Below are positions 5,650 to 7,785 of a DNA stretch of 64,000 bases, one piece after another; position 1 is the first letter of the stretch, and each line of letters begins with the position of its first letter. Under the pieces are notes generated by a model. The model saw only the letters and a program-made list of their open reading frames with translations. It was not told the origin of the DNA and did not search any database. Location of the stretch: positions 229,701-293,700 of the forward strand of contig KN832555.1 in assembly GCA_000827205.1 (NCBI GenBank). The letters run 5' to 3'. The position numbers and the translations under genes are program-made. Source of the stretch: Plicaturopsis crispa FD-325 SS-3. Lineage: Eukaryota > Basidiomycota > Agaricomycetes > Amylocorticiales > Amylocorticiaceae.

Positions 5650-7785
5650 ATGACCTCCGTCCTTTTGCGCCGTCAGCTCGCGCTACCGCGCCCAATATCT
5701 AGTCTCACTCGCCGCCATATATCTGCCAGTGCACCGGCAAAAGCTCAAGAGGATTGGGAATGGGTGTCCCCGGACAAGGGTGGGACACCCCCGCCTCCAC
5801 ATATCAAGTCGGGTCCAAAGCGCGCGGCAAAAACTGGCGCCGCACCCATACATACAGTAGAGGATGTGGCAGGAACAGCTCATGCGGATATGTTGACGGA
5901 GGGTGCGTCAACGGGACAAGGCAAAATGCGGCATTTCACAGGTCAGTCCGCGTTCGTGATACATCACTTGCACCGTATTCACCAGTTATTCCACAGTTAA
6001 TTTCGGGTATGTCGCAATGTGTAAAGTACTCGAGCTTCGTTTTAAACAGGCTGTCCTTGTAACAGTCCCCAGCATCCAGCGGCACACGGTGTGTTGCGGA
6101 TGATTCTCGAGCTAAACGGAGAAGAGATTTTGCGTGCCGATCCCGTATGCCCTCTCATAGGCTATATCGTTCAGCATGCTAAATCTATCTATCTATCAGC
6201 ATGTCGGCTTACTCCACCGCGGGACGGAAAAGCTGATCGAGTACAAGACATATACCCAAGCATTGCCATACTTCGACCGCCTGGATTATGTCTCCATGAG
6301 TAAGTTAGAACCCATCCGTGCTGAATGCTAAGCATCGAATATTCATATCTCTGTACCAGTGACAAATGAGCTTTGCTACTCACTGGCCGTTGAGAAGCTA
6401 CTAAATATCGAAGTACCCGAGCGCGCCAAATGGATTCGGACCCTTTTCGGAGAGATCACTCGTATCCTCAATCGTGAGCGTGTTTGCCTTCACGGTCTAT
6501 TGCTCAAGTTTTGACGTCAACAATGCTAGATCTTATGGCTGTACTGACCCACGCTATGGATGTTGGAGCTCTCACTCCTTTCCTCTGGGGTTTCGAGGAG
6601 CGAGAAAAGTTAATGGAGTTTTACGAGCGTGTGTCCGGTGCTCGTCTACACGCCGCATACATTCGCCCCGGTGGTGTCGCGTTCGATCTCCCCCACGGAC
6701 TACTGGACGATATATTCAAGTGGTCCACCCAATTCGCCTCTCGGGTGGATGAGATCGAGGAGGTCGTCACTGGCAACCGTATCTGGAAGGGACGAACCAT
6801 TGGTGTCGGCCCTGTCACTGCCAAAGAGGCACTGGATTATAGCTTCACCGGCGTCATGCTTAGGGGAAGTGGCATTCCTTGGGACATCAGGAAAGTGGCC
6901 CCCTACGACAAATACGACGAAGTACGTATGTGTATCCTTGTTGAGACTCGTGGACTTACGGTCCTTGTGTAGGTCGAGTTCGATGTTCCTGTTGGCAAGG
7001 CTGGTGATTGCTATGACCGGTATCTCTGCCGAGTCCAAGAGTTCAGAGAAAGTCTGCGGATCATTAACCAGGTAAGCCTCGACACATAAACATGCATGAT
7101 GTTTCCCGTTGACGTCCTCCTGTTTATGCATCTACAGTGCCTAAACAAAATACCTACCGGCGCGATTAAAGTTGACGACCAGAAACTGACACCACCACCC
7201 CGTGCATCCATGAAGGAAAGCATGGAGTCACTCATTCATCACTTCAAGCTCTTCAGCGAGGGCTACTCTGTGCCCCCCGGCGAGACCTATAGCGCAATCG
7301 AGGCTCCTAAGGGCGAAATGGGCGTTTACCTCGTGTCGTGCGTATCTTCATCCATGCTTCCCATTTTCGCATGTTCGGACTATGTTGACATGGTATGTCT
7401 ATAGGGATGGTTCCAACCGCCCATACAGATGTAGCATTCGTGCACCTGGGTTTGCCCATCTTGCGGGCTCTGACTTCATGATGAGACGTAAGTCCGTTTC
7501 TCTCGACATGTTTTGTCGTAGCTAACGATACCATCTTTCGCAGATGTGAGATTCCATGACTGCAAGATGCGTTTGAGATCGACTAACCGTTGTTTTCTAG
7601 CACATGATCGCAGACGCGGTTACCATCATCGGCACTATGGTAAGCCACTCACTTCAACTTGACTGCTTTTCTGCCGCTCATCATTTTCTCCAGGATCTTG
7701 TTTTCGGGTACGCCTTTACTCTGCCTCATCCTGCTCGCGGCATATCTAACTATTCCGGAAATATTATAGCGAAGTCGACCGATAG
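5650..7785 (+). CDS. nuo-49: NADH:ubiquinone oxidoreductase 49 kDa subunit (NDUFS2/Nuo49), complex I
   Basis: Thirteen predicted exons (5650-5941, 5997-6006, 6066-6144, 6200-6299, 6360-6473, 6530-6921, 6973-7071, 7138-7337, 7405-7487, 7544-7545, 7601-7639, 7696-7709, 7770-7785) give 1440 bases, 479 residues. The N-terminus is an Arg-rich mitochondrial presequence ([16 protein letters not shown]). The core has the family signatures [33 protein letters not shown] and GSDFMMRHHMIAD, ending in DLVFGEVDR. The subunit is nuclear-encoded and lines the quinone-binding site in the matrix arm. The arrangement needs a 10-base second exon and a 2-base tenth exon; both are required for the conserved protein sequence. 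It is convergent with the transcription-factor gene downstream. Confidence 0.95.

Follow-up and report, generated by a model that had tools for sequence, protein, structure and literature searches.

A gene for a subunit of mitochondrial complex I in this fungus raises the question of whether two bases can form an exon of their own. The window, the whole stretch of 64 000 nucleotides analysed here, belongs to a host genome of 33.2 Mb in 49 contigs, and positions 5650–7785 of its forward strand hold the complete gene of the 49 kDa subunit (NDUFS2/NuoD family), as identified from the gene model and from homology. The model consists of 13 coding exons and reads 1440 nt from ATG to stop with no internal stops, encoding 479 amino acids. 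Residues 90–479 align with solved 49 kDa subunits (best E value 7.4e-218), and the alignments shown, which are five of the 54 matched chains and are of fungal and mouse origin, reach the C-terminal end. The homology is full-length and includes the C-terminal block ending in GEVDR. The full model scores 585.5 bits against NCBIfam NuoD and 599.3 bits against PRK06075.1. Family matches in the host genome are confined to one locus, and the DNA of 7400–7700 matches only itself there. Small coding exons occur in the gene: the internal ones measure 10, 2 and 14 nt and the last exon has a coding part of 16 nt. The parts relevant to the present question are the following.

5650..7785, + strand: the 49 kDa gene (gene model, homology, NCBIfam)
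5997..6006, + strand: exon 2, 10 nt (TTAATTTCGG), which yields TVNFGPQHP, ungapped against homologues (gene model)
7405..7487, + strand: exon 9, 83 nt, ending in FMMR plus C, the first base of a split codon (gene model)
7488..7543, + strand: intron 9, 56 nt, with GTAAGT donor, GCTAACG branch motif at 7521–7527 and CGCAG acceptor (sequence, gene model)
7544..7545, + strand: predicted exon 10, the two bases AT; C plus AT gives a His just before the conserved His (best in-frame path, ungapped fit)
7546..7600, + strand: intron 10, 55 nt, with GTGAGA donor, GACTAAC branch motif (CTAAC from 7583) and TTCTAG acceptor (sequence, gene model)
7601..7639, + strand: exon 11, 39 nt, beginning with CACATG (gene model, alignment)
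7694..7707, + strand: exon 12, 14 nt (GATCTTGTTTTCGG) (gene model, alignment)
7770..7785, + strand: coding part of exon 13, 16 nt including TAG, ending in EVDR and the stop (gene model, alignment)
7496..7600, + strand: alternative single intron, 105 nt, with GTTTCT donor and product MMRRKSHMIADAV, two amino acids longer (path score, Pfam)

Exon 9 ends at position 7487 with ATGATGAGAC (AGAC) and exon 11 starts at position 7601 with CACATGATC. The 113 nt between them divide into an intron of 56 nt, the dinucleotide AT and an intron of 55 nt, and each of the two introns has a donor, a branch motif and an acceptor of its own. The elements from which a two-base exon had been proposed in the preliminary description of this DNA (AGAC, the 56-nt intron, AT at 7544–7545, the 55-nt intron and CACATG) are thus all in place. 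AT is bounded directly by an acceptor and a donor (CGCAG-AT-GTGAGA), both introns carry branch motifs, and inclusion of AT is required for the frame and for the conserved protein, which are the properties of a micro-exon (15 nt or less). The AT-inclusive junction of 7487, AT and 7601 is predicted to read AGACATCACATG, and the corresponding signature in the transcript would be AGACATCAC. Skipping of AT would shift the frame and give a product of 528 amino acids with a wrong tail, retention of intron 10 would give the same wrong tail, and retention of intron 9 would lead to a stop at 7523; for these products the last exon was read through to 8300 and the poly(A) site was ignored.

Both introns are of an ordinary kind for this fungus. 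The CTAAC motifs at 7522 and 7583 lie 34 and 37 nt past the donors of introns 9 and 10, respectively. In 264 kb of the host genome, made up of the window and 20 samples of 10 kb, donors of the form GTRNGT are most frequent 30–45 nt upstream of a CTRAC-YAG anchor and no commoner than background at more than 50 nt, so that the two donor–branch distances are typical. The other ten introns of the gene are 51–67 nt long. This favours two introns of 56 and 55 nt, since a single intron of 105, 113 or 126 nt would be outside this range.

All one- and two-intron paths across 7430–7640 with GT/GC-AG or AT-AC ends and a minimum intron length of 40 nt were enumerated, giving 184 with a single intron and 2079 with two; 431 of these are open and in frame. 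When scored against four homologues, the path through AT comes out on top of the 431 (151.8), followed by a path whose second intron is of the AT-AC type (142.8) and by the best other GT-AG path, which has a single intron of 105 nt (142.5). Among the 21 GT-AG paths listed, only that through AT leaves the conserved blocks on either side at the spacing seen in the homologues, and its junction is ungapped in all five solved 49 kDa alignments shown (of 54 matched). The profile scores agree: 88.6 bits for the tail in Pfam PF00346, compared with 82.1 for the 105-nt path and 66.0 for a path with one intron of 126 nt, and 585.5, 580.9 and 565.5 bits, respectively, in NCBIfam NuoD. The proposed two-base exon is well supported by these comparisons. 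The accompanying claim, that the frame is restored by AT alone, was too strong: the AT path fits best, but GT-AG introns at 7496–7600 (two residues more) and 7488–7613 (five residues fewer) also keep the frame. When the rule on splice signals is dropped, the score of the AT path is equalled by three single junctions, whose introns have the ends AA..AG, TA..TA and GT..CT.

The alternative that survives best is the single 105-nt intron at 7496–7600 (GTTTCT..TTCTAG), in which exon 9 is eight bases longer and the protein, longer by two residues, reads MMRRKSHMIADAV; we nevertheless regard it as very unlikely. Its junction from 7495 to 7601 would read CGTAAGTCC followed by CACATG, the intron is canonical, and both the frame and HMIADAV are kept, which makes it the second-best GT-AG path. 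To splice in this way the consensus GTAAGT donor eight bases upstream would have to be bypassed in favour of GTTTCT. This hexamer is found eight times near and upstream of branch motifs where 4.2 are expected, so that the counts alone leave it possible as a donor, but the GTTTNN class as a whole shows little excess (40 versus 36.5). The donor would also be 87 nt upstream of the branch motif, a distance at which GTRNGT is no more frequent than background, and the length of 105 nt contrasts with the 51–67 nt of the ten other introns. The two-residue insertion is absent from the five homologue alignments shown, and the Pfam and NCBIfam scores are lower.

Still less probable is a single intron of 126 nt at 7488–7613 (GTAAGT..TCGCAG). 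It combines a strong donor with a strong acceptor and keeps the frame (score 119.0), with a junction from 7487 to 7614 that would read AGAC-ACGCGG. The resulting protein, MMRHAVTIIG, would lack the five residues HMIAD, however, and these belong to a block that is ungapped in the five homologue alignments shown; Pfam drops to 66.0 bits from 88.6, and the length is about twice the norm. We give equally little weight to an assembly or sequencing indel, by which the true genome would have one 113-nt intron (7488–7600) and an adjoining exon base would be missing or added here. In its favour, skipping of AT in the sequence as given shifts the frame and leads to a product of 528 residues with a wrong tail. 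It sits badly with exons 9 and 11, which align without gaps on both sides of the junction, and with an intron of 113 nt being atypical where two complete introns of 56 and 55 nt are typical.

A stwintron is described as an internal intron that interrupts a splice element of an external intron, and the whole 113 nt would then be one composite intervening sequence, with AT not an exon. Two introns of a fungal gene do nearly adjoin each other here, but this nested reading has next to no chance of being correct: all splice elements are contiguous, the CGCAG acceptor and the GTGAGA donor are intact in the DNA, removal of AT breaks the frame, and the best single-junction product of an intervening sequence that begins and ends with G is the 105-nt path, no nested product fitting better. 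At a zero-nucleotide recursive splice site the acceptor AG abuts the donor GT and nothing is retained in the mRNA; the order at this locus is AG-AT-GT and AT has to be retained for the frame.

The arrangement around AT is more than chance. In dinucleotide shuffles inside the 113-nt stretch with the GTAAGT and TAG ends held fixed, a YAG-NN-GTRNG element that splits the stretch into two introns of 45–75 nt arises in 292 of 100 000 cases, and in three of 100 000 when both branch motifs are demanded as well. Genome-wide, the pattern branch–YAG-NN-GT–branch is not enriched, either in its strict form (three matches versus 12 in the reversed control) or in looser two-base forms (nine versus 18, and seven versus nine with CTGAC as the second motif). 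The case for the AT exon therefore rests on reading frame and homology: what counts as evidence is that AT stands exactly where two bases are needed, while the arrangement alone is no evidence. A tandem duplication of the introns is not supported, as the similarity score of introns 9 and 10 is 4.0 and about 16% of 2000 shuffles reach this value (mean 0.73, SD 3.2). The predicted RNA structure around AT is nothing special (z = −0.22).

The codon that AT completes, CAT, encodes His. In the preliminary description the second His of RHH was taken to depend on AT. It is instead the first His that AT creates, and the conserved second His (CAC) is encoded wholly within exon 11. A protein lacking the second His, suggested there as a refutation, would consequently concern the wrong residue. 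The position of the first His is occupied by Gly in five of the five solved chains shown and in all 79 bacterial NuoD loci that were parsed, which carry the conserved block unbroken; the latter come from the best 80 of at least 564 relatives, with one (L039) left out. No canonical path from the donor at 7488 yields Gly, because exon 9 ends in C. The mismatch does not favour a rival, since neither of the two GT-AG rival paths gives Gly. Either His at the conserved Gly is a true feature of this fungus or the locus is still incompletely understood. A scan of viral contigs for relatives returned a single locus, L006; it holds a phage-like ORF that bears no relation to NuoD.

On the strength of frame, splice signals and ungapped fit, we consider it highly probable that AT (7544–7545) is a real and constitutive exon between two standard short introns of the U2 type, which would be recognised by intron definition and removed sequentially. 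At about 55 nt, each intron could be recognised across itself, and contact across the exon would be unneeded. Only two bases separate the acceptor of intron 9 from the donor of intron 10, which would hardly leave room for two spliceosomes together; the donor region of the latter (−3 to +6) reaches into the AG of the former. Because overlapping sites could hardly be engaged at the same time, the two introns should be removed in turn, in either order. If intron 9 were removed first, exon 9 would gain AT at its end and the adjacent GTGAGA would become the next donor, a step resembling recursive splicing but with two bases retained. Recursive splicing had already been mentioned in the preliminary description as an alternative mechanism, and is plausible as such a sequential removal of introns 9 and 10. 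Removal of intron 9 would raise the match of the intron 10 donor to CAGGTAAGT from five to six of nine positions, a small effect that settles no order. Searches for the U1 and U12 snRNA families gave no match in the host genome and likewise none in 14 control genomes, so that their negative outcome is uninformative.

Ultra-short exons have been described before, and sequential splicing has been proposed for one of them. One-base exons occur in CYP621A of Fusarium (Nelson and Syed 2026, PMC12940212) and in APC11 of Arabidopsis (Guo and Liu 2015, PMC4674806). The Fusarium exon resembles AT in being fungal, ultra-short between two introns, required for the frame and found through homology. It differs in consisting of one base, in belonging to an ascomycete P450 and in restoring a conserved Gly, whereas AT has two bases and places His at a conserved Gly; the Fusarium exon also has SRA read support, with 20 orthologues and RNA support in two species (PMC12940212), while AT is known from the genomic sequence of one strain. 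APC11 is likewise a core gene with an ultra-short exon that is constitutive, for which a combination of intron definition and sequential splicing has been proposed (PMC4674806), and it differs in its plant origin, its intronic region of 422 nt and its examination in GFP minigenes (PMC4674806). Changing its single base to TT gave TT in the cDNA of Arabidopsis protoplasts but mis-splicing in rice protoplasts (PMC4674806), which calls for caution. In a plant survey, introns that flank micro-exons are said to compete (PMC8831610).

Basidiomycetes have micro-exons of 5 bp in bglA of Sirobasidium magnum (PMC9142197) and of 6 bp in P450s of Phanerochaete (PMC1184071). Those genes resemble the present one in having many short introns with tiny exons in between, but AT is smaller, with two bases against at least five. 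Recursive splicing in flies and RS-exons share with AT the proximity of a 3′ to a 5′ splice site, which points to removal in steps. They differ in that AT leaves two bases in the mRNA and in that its flanking introns, of about 55 nt, are not long. Tiny exons are known but very rare. The portions of the open-licence literature on ultra-short exons that were searched, fungi included, contain no two-base fungal exon. A data paper on the sago palm reportedly mentions an ‘exon of 2 bp’. If confirmed in RNA, AT would be the smallest fungal exon after the one-base case of Fusarium in the literature searched. Gene finders and aligners of reads can overlook exons of this size, which probe the lower size limit of what the spliceosome can process. 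The 49 kDa gene, at a single locus, is presumably important and its mis-splicing would be costly.

The interest of the AT exon seems to lie also in its apparent company in the same genome. A chitin synthase gene, here L111 (C5:606300–610300), contains an apparent exon of a single base, T, at position 1989 of that segment (bases 1933–2051). It would lie between introns of 56 and 62 nt, with exons of 27 and 23 nt coming next, and the junction FRT AA-gtatgt..cgcag-T-gtgagt..gacag-GTT TTG would give FRTNVLLAWTLSN. The T is needed for FRTNVLLAW, which is ungapped relative to solved chitin synthases in the five alignments shown (of six matched; two pairs are near-duplicates). The best match is 7xs6 (E value 2.8e-13), while 8k52 reads FRTNVLL identically over the junction but is a weak match, with E values of 0.00067 over the entire sequence and of about 0.1 over this stretch. 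The exons upstream are recognised by Pfam Chitin_synth_2, and the C-terminal piece with the one-base exon has no Pfam match. The one-base path scores 38.7 among 16 open in-frame paths, compared with 29.0 for the next and 27.3 for a 115-nt intron with an extra residue. The second of its introns and intron 10 of the 49 kDa gene, both of which follow an ultra-short exon, have a similarity of 13.5 against a maximum of 13 in 45 within-gene intron pairs; as one of four such comparisons, this is too weak to claim a common origin.

The two exons would provide, within one genome, two natural substrates for studying the order and fidelity with which introns with nearly touching splice sites are removed. 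A broader proposal, which we put at slightly less than an even chance, is that exons of one and two bases are spliced in two or more core genes of this fungus, chitin synthase and the 49 kDa subunit of complex I among them. Its spliceosome, working by intron definition, would then have practically no minimum exon size, and dense intron gain could break up one codon into exonic fragments, here accompanied by the change of an otherwise strongly conserved Gly codon to His.

Four gap-pattern searches of the host genome gave 33 matches, one of which is the AT exon. One-base patterns matched three times (16 in the reversed control) and, in a second search, 14 times, above the control of seven; two-base patterns matched nine times (control 18) and seven times (control nine). 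These patterns require CTAAY as the first branch motif and hence miss other candidates. The surroundings of 12 of the 32 other matches were read (L110–L121) and a one- or two-base exon is supported at one of them, L111. L110 and L113–L115, judged by eye from three-frame translations, a weak method, lack support as ultra-short exons, and for L116–L121 a scan for donors, acceptors and open frames gave none, which is not a disproof. In L112 the one-base reading scores 38.5 bits in Pfam CBM_1 against 48.7 bits for an exon of 13 nt. A pattern match can therefore mislead; at the 49 kDa stretch all acceptors and donors were enumerated. L112 itself (C2:2860600–2863700, minus strand) is a gene with a cellulose-binding domain (Pfam CBM_1) and has exons of 13 and 18 nt. 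The two-base-exon pattern also picks up identical 49-base matches at C2:723985–724033 (+) and C26:36321–36369 (−), perhaps a repeated element. Tandem intron-like pairs 1–30 nt apart, counted from motifs and not from homology, number nine (seven distinct acceptors) in 200 kb outside the window (L010–L029) compared with one in the reversed sequence, and 15 compared with two when the window is included. Exons of 1–30 nt seem to be common in the host genome.
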